Both the position numbers and the translations under genes were made by a program. 64,000 nt of DNA from contig NZ_VULN01000005.1 of NCBI RefSeq assembly GCF_009696675.1, forward strand, positions 62,001-126,000. The letters are read 5' to 3'. The DNA comes from Acidaminococcus fermentans (lineage in GTDB: Bacteria; Bacillota; Negativicutes; Acidaminococcales; Acidaminococcaceae). Below the pieces are notes generated by a model. The model did not search any database and was not told where the DNA came from. It saw only the letters and a program-made list of their open reading frames with translations. Shown here piece after piece: positions 5,407 through 44,941 of this stretch (the stretch's first letter is position 1; every line of letters starts with the position of its first letter).

Positions 5407-5640
5407 GGACGCAGCTGACGCTGCTAACCCACCACCCATGCTGCGCATGGATACCCCCGCCCTTGCAAAGGGCGGATAGCCGCCCGGAGCTTCGGCCGAT
5501 TGCTTATGCACCAGCGCATCAGCCCGGCGTACAATCATATATCCGCCCTTTTCAAGGGCGGGGGACCAGCCGCCCGGCTGGTGGTGGGTTAGCAGCCGAA
5601 GGCTGCGTTTTCCTTCAAAAAATTTTGCCTGCAAAATTTC
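5407..5640. repeat. Palindromic intergenic repeat, family A copy 1
   Basis: Most of the 475-bp gap between carD and the M48 gene is this element. Its outer arms are inverted copies (GCTGCTAACCCACCAC near 5421 and GTGGTGGGTTAGCAGC near 5581). Inside, each arm carries a small GC hairpin (CCCGCCCTTGCAAAGGGCGG near 5455, CCGCCCTTTTCAAGGGCGG near 5543). A T/A-rich tail TTTTGCCTGCAAAATTT follows. A second copy lies at 12237-12510. Open frames across it are repeat shadows, not genes. It looks like a MITE- or BIME-like element; no transposase is present. Confidence 0.75.
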
Positions 5641-5652
5641 CCCTTCTGCCTC

Positions 5653-6522
5653 TCACATCCCGCTCTCCTCCCGGATCCGCTCCAACCGGTCATCGGTGGC
5701 CGGGTGATCAGAGAGCATCCTGCCAAAGAATCCCAGTTGGGGATTGTGGTACATGGTGTCCAGCTTGGCCAGGCCGCTGTACAGTTCCGGCCCCAGGCCC
5801 AGCTGACAGGCGTAGGCGTCGGCGGCATATTCATCCTGCCGGGAACAGTACCGGTTGAACAGGGTGAGAGGCCACCCCAGCAGCCAGTTCCCCAGCCGGA
5901 GGATGAAGTTCATCACGATGCAGAAGAACACCAGGATGAACCCCAGCACAGGGATGAACTGGAGCACCGTCAAAAGAGCCAGGAACAGGCTGTAAATCCG
6001 GAAACAGGCCCGGTTGGCCGTGGACATGCCCCAGAGCAGCAGCAGTTTCCAGGTGTGTCCCTTCTGCAGGTGGCCCATTTCGTGGGCCAGGATCCCGGAC
6101 AGCTCCTCCACGGTGAAATACTGGAACATGGGCTCATTGACGATGATGTTGTTGTCACCCAGGGCACAGGCGTTGAAGGATTTTTCCGGATTCACGTACA
6201 GATGGAAGGTCTCCCCTTCCAGTCCGCCCCGGCGGATCACCGGCTCCAGAGCCTGTTCCAGCACCTGCCGGTAAGGGCCCTGGGCAGATTTCCACCCGCT
6301 GGTGAAAATCATCACCCGCTGAAAAAAGGGCAGCTGCATCAAAAGCCCCGGCACCAGAATCAGTACCGTCATCAGCCACTGCTGCCAGCCGGGGCTGGCA
6401 TCCAGGGTCCGGAGGGTCTCCGGCGGCAGGAAGAAAGCCGCCAGAAGCAGGAAAAACGGGCTCCACAAAGACAGGAGCAGGTAGTTCACAAAGAAAGAAA
6501 CGATCATCAAAAGGGCGCTCAC
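5653..6522 (-). CDS. M48-family zinc metalloprotease, membrane protein
   Basis: A 289-residue protein with strongly hydrophobic N-terminal segments (residues about 5-35 and 48-62) and another hydrophobic pair after the active site. HEMGH at 147-151 is the HExxH zinc site, and the later DEYAADAYA supplies the third ligand of M48 peptidases (HtpX/Ste24/YhfN-like). The start is GTG at 6522, behind AGGAGGG. Such proteases act in membrane-protein quality control, but no specific substrate can be inferred. Flanked by repeats on both sides, so probably monocistronic. Confidence 0.88.
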   Translation of the reverse strand: MSALLMIVSFFVNYLLLSLWSPFFLLLAAFFLPPETLRTLDASPGWQQWLMTVLILVPGLLMQLPFFQRVMIFTSGWKSAQGPYRQVLEQALEPVIRRGGLEGETFHLYVNPEKSFNACALGDNNIIVNEPMFQYFTVEELSGILAHEMGHLQKGHTWKLLLLWGMSTANRACFRIYSLFLALLTVLQFIPVLGFILVFFCIVMNFILRLGNWLLGWPLTLFNRYCSRQDEYAADAYACQLGLGPELYSGLAKLDTMYHNPQLGFFGRMLSDHPATDDRLERIREESGM

Positions 6523-12236: not shown

Positions 12237-12510
12237 AGGGAAACGCAGCCCATGGGGCTGCTAACCCACCACCCATGCTGCGCATGGATACCCCCGCCCT
12301 TGCAAAGGGCGGATAAAAACGCGGGGCGCAAGACCCCTTGTTTTGAAACATAGAACCCGTACAGAAATTTTCTGTTCTGATGTAAAAAGCAATGGGCGTC
12401 AGCCCGAGCGTATATCCGCCCTTTGCAAGGGCGGGGGACCGTTGCGCTTGCGCAATGGTGGTGGGTTAGCAGCCTCCGGCTGCGTCTTCCTTCAAAAAAA
12501 TTTGCCTGCA
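12237..12510. repeat. Palindromic intergenic repeat, family A copy 2
   Basis: Same design as 5407-5640: GCTGCTAACCCACCACCCAT near 12258 on the left, GGTGGTGGGTTAGCAGCC near 12457 on the right, each with a GC hairpin around GCAAAGGGCGG. The central part (about 12316-12408) differs from copy 1. It fills the 488-bp gap before prmA. Nothing else is seen in the gap except the terminator at 12540 and a possible prmA -10 box. Confidence 0.75.
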
Positions 12511-12539
12511 ATTTTTTTCCTTCGGCCGCTGACAGGCAC

Positions 12540-27439: not shown

Positions 27440-27668
27440 TCGGGAGTCTGAAGTCGGAAGCCTCAGGACAGAACCTGGCTTGAAGGCCAGTTTCTTTTGA
27501 TTGTATAAAACCGTAGGGGCCGCAGGCCCGGCGGCCCGCTCTATGCACGGACTATCGATGATTCAGCGGGCTGCCCGGCGTGCAGCCCCTACGGTTCCGG
27601 TTTACACATTTAAAAATTTGCCCGCAAATTTATCATTGGGCTCCAGACTTCCGACTCCCGACTCCTGA
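27440..27668. repeat. Compound palindromic repeat, family B copy 3
   Basis: Same parts as 23520-23722 in the opposite order: GTCGGGAGTCTGAAGTCGG tandem units, arm CCGTAGGGGCCGCAGGCCCG, central ATCGATGAT, inverted arm GCCCGGCGTGCAGCCCCTAC, AAATTTGCCCGCAAATTT, then GACTTCCGACTCCCGACTCC units. Fills the 369-bp gap between rdgB and the CofE-like gene. Confidence 0.7.
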
Positions 27669-27707
27669 CTACATCGATTAAGCAGCAATGCTGCTTAATC
27701 GATGTAG
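27669..27707. repeat. Perfect 19-bp palindrome overlapping a stop codon
   Basis: CTACATCGATTAAGCAGCA, one base, then its exact complement. One arm is the last four codons and stop of the CofE-like gene. No T-run follows on either strand. Confidence 0.85.
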
Positions 27708-30069: not shown

Positions 30070-30166
30070 CCGGGGACGTACATGCCACAGGCAAAATCCG
30101 CTGCAGACAAAGCAAAAGGTGCATATCCCCCGCCTGGGTTATGCGTTAGCCTCCTGTGCCCAGGGA
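30070..30166. repeat. Family C structured repeat, partial copy
   Basis: Carries one half of the family C inner stem (GACGTACATGCCACAGGCAA near 30075), the GACAAAGCA block, and the conserved end GGGTTATGCGTTAGCC at 30135-30151, repeated once more in variant form at the adjacent gene end (30166-30176). The other half of the hairpin is missing. Confidence 0.65.
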
Positions 30167-32611
30167 CTATGCGTCAGCCTTGGGAAAATGTCTCGCCGTA
30201 TACAACAGATACACCTTCCCCTTCCGGATGGCCGGAAAAATGGAATGGATGTCCCAGTGGTACTCCCCGTCGTTGCCAAGGGTCCGGAAACCGCCGGAAA
30301 TCATCCCTTCCGGGCTTTTCCGGATCCGTTCCATCAAAGAGTAAGAATCGTTGAAGGCCAGGAATCGGTCCCGGTCTGAAGGATGGATCATGGTCTCCAC
30401 GTACTCCTGGACCAGTTCCCGGACACCGGACCGTTTTTGGAACAAATACTTCCGGAACGGTGAATTCATCACCAGAGGGATGACCATATCATCTTTCGTA
30501 TCCACCAGGAAAACATGCCGATACAAATACATCATATTCCGGATGACCCAGTCCAGGTCGCCGGCAAGGCCTTTTTCTTTTTGGATGGTGAAATTGGTAA
30601 GATGGAGCAGGACCAGGTGATGCTGATCATGGGAAGCCAGGTGGTTGGCCTTCAGCTGCATGTACTGCCCGTTCACCGTATAGGTCAGATCTTTTCCGGT
30701 ACGGCTGCTGACCACATCCGTCAGGAAGTTCTGGATGTTCTTGCTGATGGGCCCCGCCTGGGCATTGACGAGCACGGCACTCTGCCGCAGGCTGTCCATA
30801 CCGGCGGATTGGATGGTGGTCCCATATTCCTCATTGGCAAACAGATAGCGGAAACGGTTCCGGCCCACTTCCGCCACGGCCATGGGCTTGTCCGTCTGGA
30901 AATCCACAGGCCCCAGGGCTCCATAATACCGGCGGAGTTCAGGAGTTTCCACCTGCCAGTGGTTTTCCTGATAGGCCTGGCTCAATTCTCCAAAAGACAT
31001 GGGTCTTCCATAATAATATCCCTGGAGCAGTTCGCAGCCGATGGACCGGGCAAATTCCGCGTGCTCCCGGGTCTCCACCCCTTCCATCAGGGTGTGGATG
31101 CCGATTTCTTTGGCCATCCGGATAATGGCCTTGATGATGTTCTGGGATTTTTCCGTAAACTGGGACAAAAAGGCCATGTCGATTTTGATTTCATCAAAGC
31201 GATAATTTTTCAAGGTATTCAGAGAAGAATACCCGCTGCCGAAATCATCCATCCATACTTCGTATCCGGCCTGCCGGAACCGCTGGATTTCCTGATGGAG
31301 CACGTCTCCTTCATGGACGAAGACGCTCTCAGTGATTTCCACATAGAGCATATTCCGGGGTACCTGATACCGCTTCCGGATTTCTTCCACATCTTCAAAA
31401 ATGGATCCCTGAAAGAAATCCATCCGGGACAGGTTGAAGGAAGCCGGGATCACGGTTCTCCCCGCTTCCAGCTGGAGCCGGTACAGGCGGCAGATTTCTT
31501 CCAGTACGTACAGGTCCAGTTTCCGGATCTGCCGGCTTTCTTCCAGGAGAGGAATGAACACCCCGGGAGATATCATCCCTTTTTCCGGATCCATCCACCG
31601 GGACAGGGCTTCCACGCTGGCAATGGTCCCGGAAATGGTCCGGGCCACCGGCTGGAAATATACCTGGATCCAGCGTTTTTCCAGAGCCTCCTGGAAATGG
31701 TCAATCACATAATTCCGCAGATTTCGTTCTTCTCCCATGGCTTTGGTGTAAAAACACACATGCCGGTCCGGGATCTCCTTGATGCTGTCGCAGGCCAGCT
31801 GGGCCATGCCACAGGCGCTTTCCACTGAAACACTGCGGTCTTCCACCGGATAAACGCCGAATTTCACGTCCATCCGGTGGGAATCATGGAATCGGCGGAC
31901 CCGGCTGGAAATCACAGGAATCTGTTTTTTCAGAGAAGGAAGACTGGTGAGCACCACAAAATGATCATCCATGAACCGGGAAATCAGTTTGTTGGGGAAG
32001 CTTTCCCGAAGCACATCCGCCATCTGGACCAGGAACCGGTTGCCTTTTTCGCTTCCGTTGCGCATATTGTACCGGTTGAAATTGTGGACATTCACATACA
32101 CCAGAGCCAGTTTCTGGGCCCGGGGATCCAGCCTGGCCAGCTCCATGAGCCGGGAAGCCCGCTTCATGAACCGGTTCTTTCCCGGCAGTCCGGTGAGAGA
32201 ATCCATATCATAGATTTTGTATCTGGTGTCATTGTCCAGGAAAAACACATAAAAGACCGCTCCCACCCCGGGAATGAATACCCGATGGCCGAATTCCTCC
32301 ACTCTTTGGATGGAACCGTCTTTCCGGTACACCCGATAATTGACGAAATCCAACTTGCTCCGGCTGCCGGCAATCTGCTGCCGGATGTCCCGTTCCACAC
32401 GTTCCCTGTCCTCAGGATGGACCAGGGTGGCAAAGGATCCTTCTGTCAGTTCCAGGAATTCGTCAAAAGAGGAACATCCCAGCATGGAAATCATTTCGGG
32501 ATTGGCATAGAGAATTTCTTCCCGCTTATTGTCCCGGTAAATCAAAACACCTCCAGGCAGATGGTCAGGAATCTGCTGGAGGATCAAATCCAAATTCTCT
32601 TCCTGTATCAT
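30167..32611 (-). CDS. PAS / degenerate GGDEF / EAL protein (cyclic-di-GMP phosphodiesterase), copy 1
   Basis: An 814-residue soluble signalling protein. PAS at about 10-125, a GGDEF-like domain at about 150-310 in which the signature is MDDHF (in ISRFMDDHFVVL), so cyclase activity is unlikely, and an EAL domain at about 330-570. EAL catalytic residues look intact: VEALSRW, FNLSRMD, VEITES, MDDFGSGYSS, IKIDMAF, EGVET and LQGYYYGRP. A second PAS-like region closes the protein. Predicted to hydrolyse c-di-GMP in the cytoplasm. ATG 32611 with AAGGGTGA. Has a TGGACA-N17-TATAAT promoter. Same length as its neighbour, a tandem duplication. Confidence 0.9.
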   Translation of the reverse strand: MIQEENLDLILQQIPDHLPGGVLIYRDNKREEILYANPEMISMLGCSSFDEFLELTEGSFATLVHPEDRERVERDIRQQIAGSRSKLDFVNYRVYRKDGSIQRVEEFGHRVFIPGVGAVFYVFFLDNDTRYKIYDMDSLTGLPGKNRFMKRASRLMELARLDPRAQKLALVYVNVHNFNRYNMRNGSEKGNRFLVQMADVLRESFPNKLISRFMDDHFVVLTSLPSLKKQIPVISSRVRRFHDSHRMDVKFGVYPVEDRSVSVESACGMAQLACDSIKEIPDRHVCFYTKAMGEERNLRNYVIDHFQEALEKRWIQVYFQPVARTISGTIASVEALSRWMDPEKGMISPGVFIPLLEESRQIRKLDLYVLEEICRLYRLQLEAGRTVIPASFNLSRMDFFQGSIFEDVEEIRKRYQVPRNMLYVEITESVFVHEGDVLHQEIQRFRQAGYEVWMDDFGSGYSSLNTLKNYRFDEIKIDMAFLSQFTEKSQNIIKAIIRMAKEIGIHTLMEGVETREHAEFARSIGCELLQGYYYGRPMSFGELSQAYQENHWQVETPELRRYYGALGPVDFQTDKPMAVAEVGRNRFRYLFANEEYGTTIQSAGMDSLRQSAVLVNAQAGPISKNIQNFLTDVVSSRTGKDLTYTVNGQYMQLKANHLASHDQHHLVLLHLTNFTIQKEKGLAGDLDWVIRNMMYLYRHVFLVDTKDDMVIPLVMNSPFRKYLFQKRSGVRELVQEYVETMIHPSDRDRFLAFNDSYSLMERIRKSPEGMISGGFRTLGNDGEYHWDIHSIFPAIRKGKVYLLYTARHFPKADA

Positions 32612-32800: not shown

Positions 32801-32836
32801 TATGGATTTCTCTCAGTTGGACGGCAAGATAACGGG

Positions 32837-35281
32837 TTATGCGTTGGCCTTGGGAAAATGTCTCGCCGTATACAACAGATACACCTTCCCCTTCCGGATG
32901 GCCGGAAAAATGGAATGGATGTCCCAGTGGTACTCCCCATCGTTGCCAAGGGTCCGGAAACCGCCGGAAATCATCCCTTCCGGGCTTTTCCGGATTCGTC
33001 CCATCATGGAATCCAATTCATTGAAAGTCAGGAACCGCTCCTGATCTTCCGGATGGATCATGGTCCGTGTATACTGCTGGACTATATCCTGGATACCTGT
33101 CCGTTTCTGGTAAAAATATTTCCGGTAGGGAGAATTCATGACCAGAGGAACGGCCGTATCGTTTTCCATATCCACCAGGGATACATTCTGGTACAGGTAC
33201 AGCAGGTTCCGGTTGACCCAGTCCAGGCTGTCGCTGGCATTCTGATCTTCCTGGATGGTGAAATTGGTCAGGTACAGAAGTAGCAGGTGATGCTTGTCAT
33301 GAGAAGCCAGATAACTGGCCTCCAGCCGCATATACCGGCCGTTCACCGTATAGGTCAGCGTCTTTTCGCTGCTGGTATGGATCACATCGTGCAGGAAACT
33401 GTGGATGTTTTTGCTGATGGGGCCTGCCAGGGCATTGACGAACACTTCCGTTTGCCGGAGGCTTTCCATGCCCGCAGCCTGGATGGTATTCCGGTATTCT
33501 TCATTGGCAAAAAGATACCGGAACCGATTCCCGGCCACCTCCGCCACCGCCATGGGCCTGTCTGTAAGAAAGTCGATGGACCCCAGTTTCCCGTAGTACT
33601 GACGCAGTTCAGGAGTTTCCACCTGCCAGCGTTTCTCCCGGTACATCTGCTTCAGTTCTTCAAAGGACATGGGCCGTCCGTAATAATATCCCTGGATCAG
33701 TTCGCAGCCAATGGACCGGGCAAATTCCGCCTGTTCCCGGGTCTCCACCCCTTCCATCAGGGTGTGGATGCCGATTTTTTTCGCCATCCGGATAATGGCC
33801 TTGATGATGTTCTGGGATTTTTCCGTAAACTGGGACAAAAAGGCCATGTCGATCTTGATTTCATCGAAGCTGTAGTTTTTCAGGGTATTCAAAGAAGAAT
33901 AGCCGCTGCCGAAATCATCCATCCACACTTCGTATCCAGCCTGCCGGAACCGCTGGATTTCCTGATGGAGCACGTCTCCTTCATGGACGAAGACGCTCTC
34001 AGTGATTTCCACGTAGAGCATGTTCCGGGGCACCTGATACCGTTTCCGGATCTCTTCCACATCTTCGAAAATGGATCCCTGGAAGAAATCCATCCGGGAA
34101 AGATTGAAGGAAGCCGGGATCACGACTTTTCCCTGTTCCTGCTGAAACCGGTACAAACGGCAGATTTCTTCCAGTACGTACAGGTCCAGTTTCCGGATCT
34201 GCCGGCTTTCTTCCAGGATGGGGATGAAAATCCCGGGAGATATCATCCCTTTTTCCGGATCCATCCACCGGGACAGGGCTTCCACACTGGCAAGGGTCCC
34301 GGAAATGGTCCGGACCACCGGCTGGAAATACACCTGGATCCAATGTTTTTCCAAAGCTTCCCGGAAATGGTCGATTACATAATTCCGCAGATCCCGGGCT
34401 TCTCCCATGGTTTTGGTATAGAAGCATACATGGCGGTCCGGGATGTCCTTGATGCTGTCACAGGCCATCTGGGCCATGCCGCAGGCGCTTTCCACCGGGA
34501 TGGTATCGTCTTCCACAGGATAGATGCCGAATTTCACATCCAGCCAGCTGGAATCGTACAAACCGTGGATCTGGCTGGAAATCACAGAAATCTGTTTTTC
34601 CAGGGAAGGCAGGGTGGTAAGCACCACGAAATGGTCGTCCATGAACCGGGAAATCAACTTGTTGGGAAAGTTCTCCCGGAGCACTTCGGTCATCCTGACC
34701 AGGAACTGATTGCCCTTTTCGCTGCCGTTGCGCAGGTTGTACTGGTTGAAGTTGTGGATATTCACGTAGACCAGGGCCATTTTCGGGGCCTTGGGATCAT
34801 GGGCGGCCAAAGCCAGTACCATGGAGGCATGCCTTATGAACCGGGTCTTTCCGGGAAGCCCGGTAAGAGAGTCCGTATCGTAGATTTTGTATTTGGTATC
34901 GTTGTCCAGGAAAAAGACGTAAAAAACCGCCCCCACTCCGGGAATGAACACCCGATGGCCAAACTCCTCCACCCGACGGACGGATCCATCCTTCCGGATC
35001 ACCCGGTAATTGACGAAATCCAGCTTGCTCCGGCTGCCGGCAATCTGCTGCCGGATGTCCCGTTCCACCTGTTCCCTGTCTTCCGGATGGACCAGGGTAA
35101 CAAAAGACCCCCCTGTCAGTTCCAGGAAGTCATCAAAAGAAGAACAGCCAAACATGGACAGAAGCCAGGGATTGGCATAGAGGATTTCTTCCCGCTTGTT
35201 GTCCCGGTAAATCAGAACTCCTCCCGGCAGATGGTCCGGCATCTGCTGGAGGAGAAGATCCAGAGTCTGTTCTGTTGTCAT
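32837..35281 (-). CDS. PAS / degenerate GGDEF / EAL protein (cyclic-di-GMP phosphodiesterase), copy 2
   Basis: An 814-residue paralogue of the downstream gene with the same domains: PAS, GGDEF-like with MDDHF instead of GGDEF, EAL with its catalytic residues conserved (VEALSRW, MDDFGSGYSS, EGVET), and a PAS-like C terminus. The last 150 bp are almost identical to copy 1, while the PAS, the linker and the middle of the C-terminal part differ more. A GTG at 35290 overlaps the stop of the PAS gene (GTGA); ATG 35281 with GGTGA is preferred. Coupled to the small PAS protein, which may supply its sensory input. Confidence 0.9.
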   Translation of the reverse strand: MTTEQTLDLLLQQMPDHLPGGVLIYRDNKREEILYANPWLLSMFGCSSFDDFLELTGGSFVTLVHPEDREQVERDIRQQIAGSRSKLDFVNYRVIRKDGSVRRVEEFGHRVFIPGVGAVFYVFFLDNDTKYKIYDTDSLTGLPGKTRFIRHASMVLALAAHDPKAPKMALVYVNIHNFNQYNLRNGSEKGNQFLVRMTEVLRENFPNKLISRFMDDHFVVLTTLPSLEKQISVISSQIHGLYDSSWLDVKFGIYPVEDDTIPVESACGMAQMACDSIKDIPDRHVCFYTKTMGEARDLRNYVIDHFREALEKHWIQVYFQPVVRTISGTLASVEALSRWMDPEKGMISPGIFIPILEESRQIRKLDLYVLEEICRLYRFQQEQGKVVIPASFNLSRMDFFQGSIFEDVEEIRKRYQVPRNMLYVEITESVFVHEGDVLHQEIQRFRQAGYEVWMDDFGSGYSSLNTLKNYSFDEIKIDMAFLSQFTEKSQNIIKAIIRMAKKIGIHTLMEGVETREQAEFARSIGCELIQGYYYGRPMSFEELKQMYREKRWQVETPELRQYYGKLGSIDFLTDRPMAVAEVAGNRFRYLFANEEYRNTIQAAGMESLRQTEVFVNALAGPISKNIHSFLHDVIHTSSEKTLTYTVNGRYMRLEASYLASHDKHHLLLLYLTNFTIQEDQNASDSLDWVNRNLLYLYQNVSLVDMENDTAVPLVMNSPYRKYFYQKRTGIQDIVQQYTRTMIHPEDQERFLTFNELDSMMGRIRKSPEGMISGGFRTLGNDGEYHWDIHSIFPAIRKGKVYLLYTARHFPKANA

Positions 35282-38511: not shown

Positions 38512-38715
38512 CCAGGCGCAGGAGATGTACCCAGATACGCGAAAGCAGATGGGTGCATATCCTACGAATTTTGGCCGGGGCACAAGAAGGGCCCAGATGC
38601 ACGAAAGCGGGAGATGTGGATTGTGGCATAGTACATAGGCGTACATGCCGCGATCCAAATCTCCCGCTGACAAAGCAGATGGGCCCTCATTGTGCCCCGG
38701 GGTTATGCGTTAGCC
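38512..38715. repeat. Family C structured repeat, copy 1
   Basis: Contains a collapsed unit (38521-38562) and a full unit (38576-38700). The full unit has an outer stem GGGGCACAAGAAGGGCCC / GGGCCCTCATTGTGCCCC, conserved loop halves AGATGCACGAAAG and TGACAAAGCAGAT, and an inner stem GAGATGTGGATTGTGGCAT against its near-complement, closing on GTACATAGGCGTAC. Ends in GGTTATGCGTTAGCC. Occupies most of the 336-bp gap between the UvrA and RIC genes; frames across it are not genes. Confidence 0.75.
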
Positions 38716-38725
38716 CTTTTATTGC

Positions 38726-39676
38726 CTAGTCCTGGTTCGGATTCCAACTGCTCCCCGAGTATTCCAAAGGATGGGCGTGGCTGAAGGAAGCACCGCAGCT
38801 GGGGCAGCCGGTTTCTCCGCAGTCATTGCAGTACAGGGCACCGCAGTTGCCGCATTCAAAGAGCACCGGGCTCTTTTCTTCCCCATTTTCGCTTTCACAG
38901 TACCCGCAGGTGTTGCTGTTGCTGCCGGCTTCCTGTTCCAGGGTCACTTCCACCTGACGGTCCAGTTCTTCCTGGCTGGGCGCTTTTTCCGCATATTCCG
39001 GGAAGACAATGGAGTTTTCCTTGAAGATGTGGACAAACACGTCATTGATGAATTCTTCCAGCAACTGGTAAGTCCGTTTGAAGGTGGCACAGGCATCAGC
39101 AGGAGCAGTGAAATGATCGGTGAGAGATTCGATTTCCTTGATGATGTCCCCGGCGGCAGAATGGTCCTTTTCCAGGTTCTGGATCAGGGTAAGGACTTCC
39201 AGGTTGGGCTGGGGATAGGACCGCATCAGCGGGAACACCAGCCGTTCTTCCCGGGCAAAATGTTCTTCCAGTTCGGTTTTCAGGGTGCCGTAGAGATGAT
39301 GGAGCCGGGTAAGCAGTTCCCCGTGGTGGACGAAATGGACAAGAAGGATCTTGTTCAGATCCGTTTCGATTTCTGCCATGTATTTCCGTTCATCCACATG
39401 GTGAGTGGCTTCCAGGTCCTGGAGCATGTCAGGGATGGAAAGGTTCTTGAACCGTTCCAGGGATTCCTGCTGGCTGCCGGTTTTAGCGCTGTGGGCGGCA
39501 ATGAATTCATTCAGGTCTGCCACCACCTTTTCCGCATCCAGATCCGTATTCTTCACAGCTTCTTCCAGAGGGATCCCCCCGCCGCAGCAGTAATCCAGGT
39601 GGAGTTCATTGAAAAAGGGAATGGTCTGGGGATAATCCCGTACAACGTCAGCCAAAGTATTCTTCACAGTAATCAT
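38726..39676 (-). CDS. RIC-type di-iron Fe-S cluster repair protein (ScdA/YtfE) with C-terminal zinc ribbon
   Basis: A 316-residue protein. Residues 1-60 are the DUF542 module (NTLADVVRDYP, HLDYCCGGG). A hemerythrin-like four-helix domain with conserved His/Glu follows (VHHGELLTRLHHLY, EEHFAREERLVFP, EKDHSAAGD, HIFKENSIVFPEY). RIC proteins repair iron-sulfur clusters damaged by NO or oxidants. Unusually it continues into a Cys-rich tail with CGYC, CGNC, CNDC and CPSC, enough for two zinc sites. ATG 39676 follows GGGAGGAAT. Monocistronic. Confidence 0.92.
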   Translation of the reverse strand: MITVKNTLADVVRDYPQTIPFFNELHLDYCCGGGIPLEEAVKNTDLDAEKVVADLNEFIAAHSAKTGSQQESLERFKNLSIPDMLQDLEATHHVDERKYMAEIETDLNKILLVHFVHHGELLTRLHHLYGTLKTELEEHFAREERLVFPLMRSYPQPNLEVLTLIQNLEKDHSAAGDIIKEIESLTDHFTAPADACATFKRTYQLLEEFINDVFVHIFKENSIVFPEYAEKAPSQEELDRQVEVTLEQEAGSNSNTCGYCESENGEEKSPVLFECGNCGALYCNDCGETGCPSCGASFSHAHPLEYSGSSWNPNQD

Positions 39677-41654: not shown

Positions 41655-41914
41655 TAAGGTACAGGAGATGTGCCCAGATACGCGAAAGCAGCGGATTTTG
41701 GCTGGGGCATAGTACAAAGACGTACATGCCACAGTCAAAATCCGTTGCTGACAAAGTAGATGGGTGCATGTCCCATGGATTCCGGCCAGGCGCACGAGAT
41801 GGGTCCAGATGCGCGAAAGGGGAGATTTTGGAGTTGGGCATAATACATGGAAGTATATGCCCGGCTCCAAAATCTCCCCTGACAAAGCAGATGGGCTCAT
41901 CTCGTGCGCCTGGG
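41655..41914. repeat. Family C structured repeat, copy 2 (two full units)
   Basis: Two units in tandem. Unit 1 (about 41663-41772): GGAGATGTGCCCAGATACGC then an inner stem around GCATAGTAC..GTACATGC. Unit 2 (about 41780-41905): outer stem CAGGCGCACGAGATG / CATCTCGTGCGCCTG and inner stem GGAGATTTTGGAGTTGGGCA with its complement. The end GGGTTATGCGTCGGC runs into the coding end of the threonine aldolase gene. Confidence 0.75.
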
Positions 41915-42949
41915 TTATGCGTCGGCGATGTCGGCGACAAGCGCCTCCACCTCCCCCTCCTCCGTACTCCAGGAGGTGCAGAAGCGGACTACCAACCGGC
42001 CGTCTTCCAGGTTCCCTTCTTTTTCAAAGACATATTTTTGGGCCAATTTTTCCGCCTGTTCCGGAGTGAGGACCACAAACTGCTGGTTGGTGGGACTGAC
42101 CACGTATTCAGGAATCCCCTTCTGCCGGAAGGCTTCCCTGATCCGAAGGGCAAAGGCATCCGCCCGGGCAGCCAGTTTGAAATACAGGCCATCCCGGAGC
42201 AGAGTATAGAACTGAAGGCCCAGAAGCCAGCCTTTGGCCAGGACGGCTCCGCTCTGTTTCATATGGGCCTTGAACCGGCGGACAGCTTCCGGATGAGTAA
42301 GGACCAGCGCTTCCCCAAAGAAGGCGCCGCATTTGGTGCCGCCCAAGTAAAAAGCGTCCGTAAGCTGGGCCAAATCCGGCAGGGTCAGGTCATTGTCCGG
42401 AGCAGCCAATCCATAGGCCAGCCGGGCTCCGTCTACAAAGAGAGCCATCCCATATTTCCGGCAGACTTCTGAAATGGCGGTAAGTTCCGCTTTGGAATAC
42501 AGGGTGCCGTATTCAGTGGTGAAAGAAATATAGACCATTGAAGGCCGAGTGAGCCATTCCGGTTCACCGGCATCATAATAGGACCGGACTTCCTGTTCAA
42601 TCTGGGCGGCGGTGATTTTCCCGTCTTTCTGGGGCAAAGCCAGGATCTTGTGGCCGGTATTTTCGATAGAAGCACATTCATGGCCATTGATGTGACCGGT
42701 GGAAGCGCAGACCACACTGTCACATGAGCTCAGAAAGGCCGCGATGGTCACCAGGTTCACCTGGGTGGCTCCTGGGAAGAAATACACTTTGCCCTGGGGA
42801 CACTGGCACAAGTCCAGGATCATTTTTTCTGCCTTGTCACACCATTCATCGGTACCATAACCGCTGAACTGGGTATCGTTGGTACGGACCAGGGCTTCCA
42901 GGATGTTGAGATGGGCCCCGTGGTTGTAGTCATTGTTGAATCGGATCAT
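41915..42949 (-). CDS. Low-specificity L-threonine aldolase-type enzyme
   Basis: A 344-residue PLP enzyme cleaving threonine (or beta-hydroxy amino acids) to glycine and an aldehyde. Blocks: GHINGHECASIENTGHKIL, LFVDGARLAYGL with the cofactor aspartate, and YLGGTKCGAFFGEAL with the Schiff-base lysine. ATG 42949 behind GGAGG; an ORF start further up lacks a site. The stop codon and last residues ADA coincide with the end of a family C repeat. Monocistronic. Confidence 0.9.
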   Translation of the reverse strand: MIRFNNDYNHGAHLNILEALVRTNDTQFSGYGTDEWCDKAEKMILDLCQCPQGKVYFFPGATQVNLVTIAAFLSSCDSVVCASTGHINGHECASIENTGHKILALPQKDGKITAAQIEQEVRSYYDAGEPEWLTRPSMVYISFTTEYGTLYSKAELTAISEVCRKYGMALFVDGARLAYGLAAPDNDLTLPDLAQLTDAFYLGGTKCGAFFGEALVLTHPEAVRRFKAHMKQSGAVLAKGWLLGLQFYTLLRDGLYFKLAARADAFALRIREAFRQKGIPEYVVSPTNQQFVVLTPEQAEKLAQKYVFEKEGNLEDGRLVVRFCTSWSTEEGEVEALVADIADA

Positions 42950-43022
42950 GATAAGTCCTCCCTGAAAAGATGATTTACCCCTTGATTCTATCATAAATCC
43001 AGCCCTTTGTCCTAAATCCCTT

Positions 43023-43168
43023 AAAAGACGTCAGAACCGGCCCTCACGGGCCTCTCAGAAGGCAGACGTCAGCTTTGTCCGATGCAGATGCAAGTTTCCA
43101 GCCTGTCCATAGCCAACAAGCTGACATCCGAAATCTGTAGGCCTCCGGCCGTGTCTGACGTCTTTTTT
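43023..43168. repeat. Family D repeat bounded by GACGTC inverted ends, copy 1
   Basis: Starts AAAAGACGTCAGA and ends TCTGACGTCTTTTTT. Internal GGCAGACGTCAGCTTTGTCC is also found, inverted, at 49395-49420. May act as a terminator on either strand. Confidence 0.65.
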
Positions 43169-43204
43169 CTCCCTCGATTTTTTCCCTGAGACCAGAGTAG
43201 GTCA

Positions 43205-43392
43205 GATGCGCGAATACGACAAAGCAGATGGGTGCATATCCCGCGAATCTCGGCCGGGACACAAGAAGGGTCCAGATGCGCGAAAGCGAGAGATTTGGAT
43301 TGTGGCATAGTACATAGGCGTACATGCCGCAATCCAAATCTCCCGCTGACAAAGCAGATGGGCCCTTATTGTGCCCCGATGTTATGCGTTAG
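43205..43392. repeat. Family C structured repeat, copy 3
   Basis: A collapsed unit (43205-43245) and a full unit (43250-43380): outer stem GGGACACAAGAAGGGTCC / GGGCCCTTATTGTGCCCC, inner stem GAGATTTGGATTGTGGCAT / ATGCCGCAATCCAAATCTC. Ends GTTATGCGTTAGCC 4 bp before the guaA stop. With family D copy 1 this fills the 447-bp gap. Confidence 0.75.
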
Positions 43393-43396
43393 CCGC

Positions 43397-44941
43397 TTAC
43401 TCCCATTCGATGGTCGCCGGCGGCTTGCTGGTAATATCGTAGACCACACGGTTTACCCCGGGGACTTCGTTTACGATTCTTCTGGAAACGATGTCCAGCA
43501 CGTGGTAGGGAATGTGGGACCAGTCAGAGGTCATGCCATCGGTGCTGTTGACGGCACGAAGAGCGATGGTGTTGCTGTAGGTCCGGAAGTCACCCATGAC
43601 ACCGACACTGCGAATGTTGGGGAGACAGGCGAAATACTGCCAGATGGACCGGTCCAGACCGGCTTTGGCGATTTCTTCCCGGAAAATAGCATCGGCTTCC
43701 CGGACGATGTGGAGCTTTTCTTCGGTGACTTCGCCCAGGACACGGATGGCCAGGCCAGGACCCGGGAAGGGCTGGCGCCATACCAGTTCAGAGGGAATGC
43801 CCAGTTCTTCGCCTACGGCACGGACTTCATCCTTGAACAGTTCCCGGAGGGGTTCGATGAGGCCCAGTTTCATGTCTTTGGGCAGGCCGCCTACATTGTG
43901 GTGGCTCTTGATGGTGGCAGAGGTGCCGGTACCTCCGGATTCCACCACGTCAGGATAAATGGTCCCCTGGACCAGGAAGTCCACGTGACCGATCTTTTTG
44001 GATTCTTCTTCGAAGACCCGGATGAATTCTTCCCCGATGATCTTCCGTTTCTTTTCAGGGTCGCTGACACCTTTCAGTTTGCTGAGGAAACGGTCCTGGG
44101 CGTTGACCCGGATCAGGTTCATATCAAAATCCCGTTTAAAGACCTGTTCCACCTGGTCTCCTTCATCCTTCCGCAGGAGACCGTGATCCACGAACACGCA
44201 GGTGAGCTGTTTGCCCACAGCCTTGTGGACCAGGACGGCGGCCACGGAGGAATCCACCCCGCCGCTCATGGCGCAGAGTACGTTCTTGTCCCCTACCTTT
44301 TCCCGGATTTCCCGGATCTTGTTCTGTGCAAAGGAAGACATGGTCCAATCCCCGGACAGATTGCAGATATTGAACAGGAAATTGGAGAACATCTGCTTGC
44401 CAAAGGGAGTGTGCATCACTTCCGGATGGAACTGGACGCCGTACAGTTTCTTTTCCTCATTCTGCATGGCAGCGATGGGACATTCTTCCGTCTGAGCAAT
44501 GACCGTAAAGCCTTCTGGTGCTTTTTCCGCATAGTCCTGATGGCTCATCCAGCATACATTGTTCTTTTCCAGACCGGAGAAGAGACGGGTTTCGTTGTCC
44601 AGGGATACAGCGGTCTTGCCGTATTCCCCGCTGCCGGCATGGGCCACTTTGCCGCCCAGAGCCTTGGTCATAAACTGATCCCCGTAGCAGATACCCAGGA
44701 CAGGGATGCCCATTTCGAAGATGCCCTCATCCACGCTGGGGGTATTTTCCGCATAGACACTGTTGGGACCGCCGGACAGGATGATGGCCTTGGGATTCTT
44801 GGCTTTGATCTTGTCCAGGGTATAATTGTAAGGAATGATTTCGCAGTACACACCGCATTCACGAACTCGTCTGGCAATCAGCTGGCTGTACTGTGCGCCG
44901 AAGTCAACAACCAGGACAACCTCATGCTGTAAATTATCCAT
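43397..44941 (-). CDS. guaA: GMP synthase (glutamine-hydrolysing)
   Basis: A 514-residue two-domain enzyme converting XMP to GMP. The class I glutamine amidotransferase part has LGICYGDQF with the nucleophilic Cys and [11 protein letters not shown] with the catalytic His. The PP-loop ATPase has [13 protein letters not shown], and the C-terminal dimerisation domain ends [17 protein letters not shown]. Promoter at 44979-45007. Preceded by an NCS2 base permease, so the two serve purine supply; no purine riboswitch was found. Confidence 0.98.

Follow-up and report, generated by a model that had tools for sequence, protein, structure and literature searches.

Why do several unrelated genes of a gut bacterium end in, or just ahead of, the same short sequence? 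The question is raised by a 64,000-nucleotide stretch of the Acidaminococcus fermentans genome (hereafter, the window). In this host and its relatives, hairpin repeats of this kind are found almost only at gene ends, and the original prediction was that such a repeat inserts at, or replaces, the 3' ends of genes.

A repeated block at the ends of unrelated genes

The block GGCTAACGCATAACCC occurs at six places in the window, all on the minus strand (41912-41927, 43379-43394, 38700-38715, 32834-32849, 30136-30151 and 30164-30179), against 0.30 expected; six or more were reached in 0 of 100 shuffles. At all six, the stop codon of the co-oriented upstream gene lies just before the block or within it. 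Copy number is low, with about 14 block places in the whole genome of the window (G000). The block had been taken for one end of a larger repeat, family C, and this was borne out: it is the first 16 nt of an element of ~143 nt, where it is followed by a long imperfect palindrome with conserved internal loops. The elements and host genes of the window are as follows.

41912-41927, minus strand: left-end block CGCCGACGCATAACCC, giving the last codons and the TAA (41915-41917) of the threonine-aldolase-like gene
41786-41927, minus strand: full element, block plus ~125-nt imperfect palindrome (right edge approximate)
41657-41783, minus strand: second full hairpin without block, in tandem 131 nt further
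41915-42994, minus strand: threonine-aldolase-like gene, its end replaced by the block (DIADA before the stop); NCBIfam matches below the curated cut-off
43253-43394, minus strand: element behind guaA, block at 43379-43394, 2 nt past the TAA (right edge approximate)
43200-43252, minus strand: degenerate second hairpin with deleted apex, behind the guaA element
43397-44941, minus strand: guaA, GMP synthase
38574-38715, minus strand: element behind the RIC gene, block at 38700-38715, 10 nt past the TAG (right edge approximate)
38514-38573, minus strand: degenerate hairpin beyond the RIC element, its apex deleted
38726-39676, minus strand: iron-sulfur cluster repair (RIC) gene, TIGR03652, just below cut-off
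32834-32849, minus strand: block without hairpin, forming the end (ANA before the stop) of EAL gene copy 2
30164-30179, minus strand: block within a left end truncated to 28 nt, forming the end (ADA before the stop) of EAL copy 1
30075-30151, minus strand: second block with truncated hairpin, behind EAL copy 1

The gene ends predicted to lie inside the block were found there. The threonine aldolase gene closes with GCC-GAC-GCA-TAA (ADA), EAL copy 2 with AAC-GCA-TAA (ANA) and no hairpin, and EAL copy 1 with GAC-GCA-TAG (ADA), the second block nearby following at a spacing of 28 nt. Behind guaA and the RIC gene the block does lie just downstream of the stop codon, as had been proposed, but at distances of 2 and 10 nt, respectively, rather than 4 to 13. 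Stop codons are present in two frames of the block, GGC-TAA or GGC-TGA in frame 1 and GCA-TAA in frame 2, and both are in use, whereas the third, stop-free frame is never used by upstream genes in the fetched stretches of four Acidaminococcus genomes. Read as a period-7 TAAC series, the block would provide stops in all three frames if GTAAC precedes; this held at just two independent loci, and we make no such claim.

Placement relative to stop codons

We looked, for each block in these stretches of the four genomes, for the co-oriented reading frame with the best score. A co-oriented stop codon was found at an offset of -19 to +10 in 29 of 30 blocks with a hairpin or hairpin remnant, compared to a null rate of 2.9% of position and strand choices in the intergenic DNA of G000. 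Placement relative to stops is far from random. After merging of orthologues, 16 of 17 loci adjoin a stop (P about 4e-24, and still 3e-9 were the true rate 25%), the sole exception being C1:59066, which no gene precedes. The stop lies before the block or abuts it in 17 rows (one 1-base overlap counted); in the remaining rows it falls inside the block, in frame 1 (GGC-TAA or GGC-TGA) or in frame 2 (GCT-RAC-GCA-TAA). The more distant Acidaminococcus genome G002 carries a subfamily with an unrelated left end, AAAGGCACCT, and 22 of its 25 elements are located -2 to +26 nt from a stop. As a separate observation, sequence resembling a decayed block (GACAAATAACCC or ATGACCCAGGCGC) also forms the end of a uvrA-like gene in G003 and G007 (L153 and L158).

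Comparison with orthologous gene ends

Element-free orthologues mostly have different last codons. The Tex-like protein ends in LTLKK (G003) or LSLKGV (G005) without the element and in LALVTADA with it (G000 and G007). Threonine aldolases elsewhere end in DILNL or DIKLL, compared to DIADA here; the EAL protein of G007 is ~17 residues longer, and both tandem EAL copies of G000 have an end made by the block. In G005 the RIC gene ends in the GGC-TAA of the block, while in relatives it ends 10 or 16 nt ahead of it. These comparisons show that the element has replaced the native end of several genes. At C31:50376 of G000 the last codon is the same as in the empty orthologue (GGC TGA to GGC TAA), so the element abuts the gene there instead of replacing its end, and has changed little. 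With this one abutting case, the predicted insertion at, or replacement of, gene 3' ends is supported both by the placement and by the mostly different ends of element-free orthologues.

Junctions at one gene differ between species (0, 10 and 16 nt at RIC; 2 and 7 nt at guaA), and the presence of the element varies among close species at orthologous loci. Where G007 and G003 have an operon gap of 12 nt, G000 carries ~640 bp of repeats. At the Tex-like locus, two species share the block but have different hairpin subtypes behind it, which fits repeated insertion or gene conversion there.

The copied unit, arrays and spread across the class

On contig C31, two copies behind unrelated genes, Tex-like and ATPase-like as judged from the protein sequences, share 97.2% identity over 143 nt. 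Their identity starts precisely at the block, which is thus part of the copied unit. As a small non-coding repeat with defined ends behind unrelated genes, the element can be classed as a bacterial MITE in the broad sense. Its length of ~143 nt contrasts with 220-280 nt in G002, where a tandem array with ~263-bp spacing was also seen (L257), some of its elements having a second repeat nested in the apical loop.

In arrays, the hairpin next to the block is mostly intact and distal copies are decayed. In two genera, a full copy was found behind a truncated left end of 12, 28 or 47-48 nt. A clean empty site revealing a target duplication did not appear among the compared loci, whose intergenic flanks are layered with other repeats.

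Other genera of the family carry the hairpin motif as well. Trained on 19 copies, a covariance model (E-values are rough, from a short calibration) matched 64 of 380 genomes and 32 of 102 genera of the class, taken to be the Negativicutes, to which Acidaminococcus belongs. Among 25 distant copies, 19 have a long co-oriented ORF ending at most 100 nt upstream, and one more lies behind a 6S RNA gene. Two sister genomes carry the hairpin just ahead of the 23S rRNA, in the 16S-23S spacer (L321, about 1520-1580). A further copy (L321, about 1840-1990) is part of an intervening sequence inside the 23S rRNA and is absent from the sister L318. There, the better-folding strand is the transcribed one.

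Structure and strand preference of the hairpin

The imperfect palindrome of ~120-125 nt has the ends GGCTRACGCATAACCC and GCGCCTGG, and the spacing between its conserved motifs CATCTRCTTTGTCAG and CTTTCGCGYATCTGG is identical in 35 of 36 aligned copies. Stem positions are 87.3% paired, compared to 70.8% (maximum 76.6%) after the right arms were reshuffled among copies. In 23 of 36 pairs, two or more Watson-Crick types occur, and the R and Y positions of the hairpin motifs covary.

With RNA energies, the more stable fold belongs to the strand antisense to the gene in 55 of 60 copies, and in nearly all copies its advantage is ~10 kcal/mol; DNA energies give the same preference, in 56 of 60. The conserved mismatches are pyrimidine-pyrimidine in the gene sense and tandem purine-purine G.A in the other strand, and the sense strand shows no excess of G.U over A.C (45 versus 43). 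This preference speaks against a role of the hairpin within the upstream mRNA; it is consistent with RNA and single-stranded DNA alike and does not distinguish between the two. A search of Rfam 15 with the window, relatives and distant copies returned no family, just chance microRNA-type matches below cut-off on the hairpins.

Origin of the element

The edges of the unit, its one-sided adjacency to stops, the use of stops in two frames, the replacement of C-termini, the covarying structure and the class-wide spread are observations. We consider it likely that they reflect a non-autonomous mobile palindromic element whose left end meets a co-oriented gene at, or slightly within, the stop codon and whose hairpin lies downstream.

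Among the closest known parallels are the REP repeats, which lie mostly within 20 bp of gene 3' ends and in many cases supply the flanking gene with its stop codon through their termini (PMC3733652). Like REP repeats, the element is palindromic, repeated and downstream of coding regions, and it can supply a stop. Its hairpin is much longer (~120 nt, not 20-40 nt) and has conserved internal loops; there is no GTAG or CGTC tag, the block has stops in two frames, orientation is single, and adjacency to stops is nearly exclusive where that of REP is partial. Y1/HUH enzymes act on imperfect, mismatched hairpins, and a REP/RAYT-type element moved by such a tyrosine transposase would fit in this regard. 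No Y1 transposase (PF01797) was detected in G000, however, and the element is near none of nine Y1 loci in relatives. We regard this origin as unlikely. By its length, ends, structure and exclusiveness of placement and the missing Y1 transposase, the element is not classed as REP.

Another explanation is a vertically kept cis-acting element of mRNA 3' ends (a terminator, stabilizer or processing site), in which stop adjacency would reflect 3' UTR function. The repeat always follows a gene of its own orientation, and some distant copies are flanked by an A-tract and a T-tract, as in bidirectional terminators. One could also take the recurrence of the repeat at guaA, the aldolase and RIC across several species as a sign of retained function, which, like the low copy number, counts against the mobile reading. 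Yet the mRNA-sense strand is the worse-folding one and lacks the G.U excess, presence and junctions differ between close species, Acidaminococcus copies have no T-tract, and at one locus the repeat precedes the native terminator. We regard a cis-acting role as quite improbable.

A retroelement-like spread, in which an antisense hairpin RNA would be reverse transcribed with its 3' tail GGGTTATGCGTTAGCC set at the gene end and with frequent 5' truncation, seems to us a similarly poor prospect. It would agree with the precise block end and the often missing opposite end, with the left-end remnants ahead of full copies in two genera, with the antisense folding preference and with the copy within the 23S rRNA in that same strand. 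On the other hand, truncated hairpins can also result from direct-repeat deletion or hairpin cleavage, and the element-bearing genomes G003 and G007 contain no reverse transcriptase.

Passive survival, that is, random insertion of which only gene-end insertions are harmless, is strongly disfavoured and very improbable. Selection would act against insertions within genes, and a two-frame stop renders terminal insertions mild; however, other intergenic sites, far from stops or in the opposite orientation, should then survive too, and the small share of intergenic choices that qualify is far from the nearly complete adjacency observed. An integron-like attC site marking gene cassettes is scarcely credible and is contradicted by anatomy: the arrays of hairpins behind genes in the same orientation, the shuffled gene order of the guaA-RIC region and the resemblance of the block to attC ends containing TAAC are attC-like, but nothing on the hairpin's right side is complementary to the block, matching R boxes (R'', R') at both ends are absent, the hosts are ordinary chromosomal housekeeping genes, and an integron integrase (TIGR02249) was never over cut-off in nine genomes of the genus.

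No mobilizing enzyme turned up: neither the Y1 transposase nor the integron integrase nor reverse transcriptase fits the distribution of the element. No autonomous partner with the same ends was present among the fetched loci, plasmid records gave no match to the element, and neither did viral contigs searched with an exact gapped pattern.

Proposed mechanism of insertion

For the non-autonomous mobile element favoured here, copies would spread through an enzyme acting in trans, which may recognize the antisense strand in its folded form, whether RNA or single-stranded DNA. Insertion would be directed to gene 3' ends, with new copies piling up beside the stop and older ones decaying distally, and the stop-carrying left end would make insertion within the last codons tolerable. 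A more far-reaching form of this model is possible, and we offer it tentatively: a structured mobile element of the whole class, undescribed so far, may have as its working form a fold of the antisense strand, either RNA or single-stranded DNA, whose tandem G.A pairs are conserved; it would be aimed at the stop region in one orientation, could also persist as an intervening sequence of 23S rRNA, and would be moved by an enzyme yet to be found.

We also considered the terminator as the insertion target. This idea is backed at one locus and by empty guaA orthologues, but the operon gap of 12 nt that received the X-ggt insertion contains no terminator, and a terminator as target is therefore insufficient.

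Relation to other repeats and significance

The YPAL/RU-2 and ERIC/IRU elements of enterobacteria are 127-168 bp in size, form long hairpins and were recently mobile according to comparisons of empty and filled sites (PMC2229807, PMC2759123). YPAL units are mobile and target places beside dyad symmetry (PMC2229807); for ERIC-type units, fusions to gene ends that eliminate the usual stop codon are on record (PMC2759123). The element shares with them a small, mobile, hairpin-forming repeat that is sometimes fused to gene 3' ends and removes the normal stop. It differs in its host phylum, its class-wide conserved mismatch motif and the target duplications, which are reported for YPAL and were not seen here. 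With 23S rRNA intervening sequences it shares the hairpin copy that is part of one in one relative and absent from the sister, but most copies here lie behind protein genes. In a broad sense, the element is best read as working like the small non-autonomous palindromic mobile elements of the REP, ERIC and YPAL kind. The supply of a stop codon by a repeat is a known kind of event, whereas the present family appears to be undescribed, as do its conserved shape and class-wide spread; no description of such an element was found in the literature on repeats of Acidaminococcus or Negativicutes.

Why REP repeats hug stop codons is an open question, with selection and targeting as the alternatives. 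The near-exclusive one-sided placement, the recurrence at the same genes with different junctions and the second left-end subfamily make the present family a clean system for studying what guides DNA to gene ends. Its class-wide fold, with strand preference and fixed spacing, offers a defined substrate for finding the enzyme. The element also represents a simple route by which unrelated proteins can gain identical last residues at their C-termini.

Other repeats in the region

Several further repeats were noted in the window. Another palindromic family, AAGACGTCAGACACGGCCGGAGGCC...TCTGACGTCTTTT, lies at 43050-43180 and in relatives (several copies in G003), often after a family C element. The repeat family GCTGCTAACCCACCACC...CCGCCCTTGCAAAGGGCGG occurs at 5420-5660 and 12257-12534; at other places in the genome it is also layered behind family C elements. 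Between 35876 and 39676, a repeat-rich region, the order of guaA, the aldolase, RIC and the uvrA-like gene is shuffled relative to G003, G005 and G007. At 27655-27700 on the minus strand, a gene 3' end and the DNA after its stop form a near-perfect palindrome (CATCGATTAAGCAGCA..TGCTGCTTAATCGATG), and the A. massiliensis orthologue shows a compensating change on both sides.
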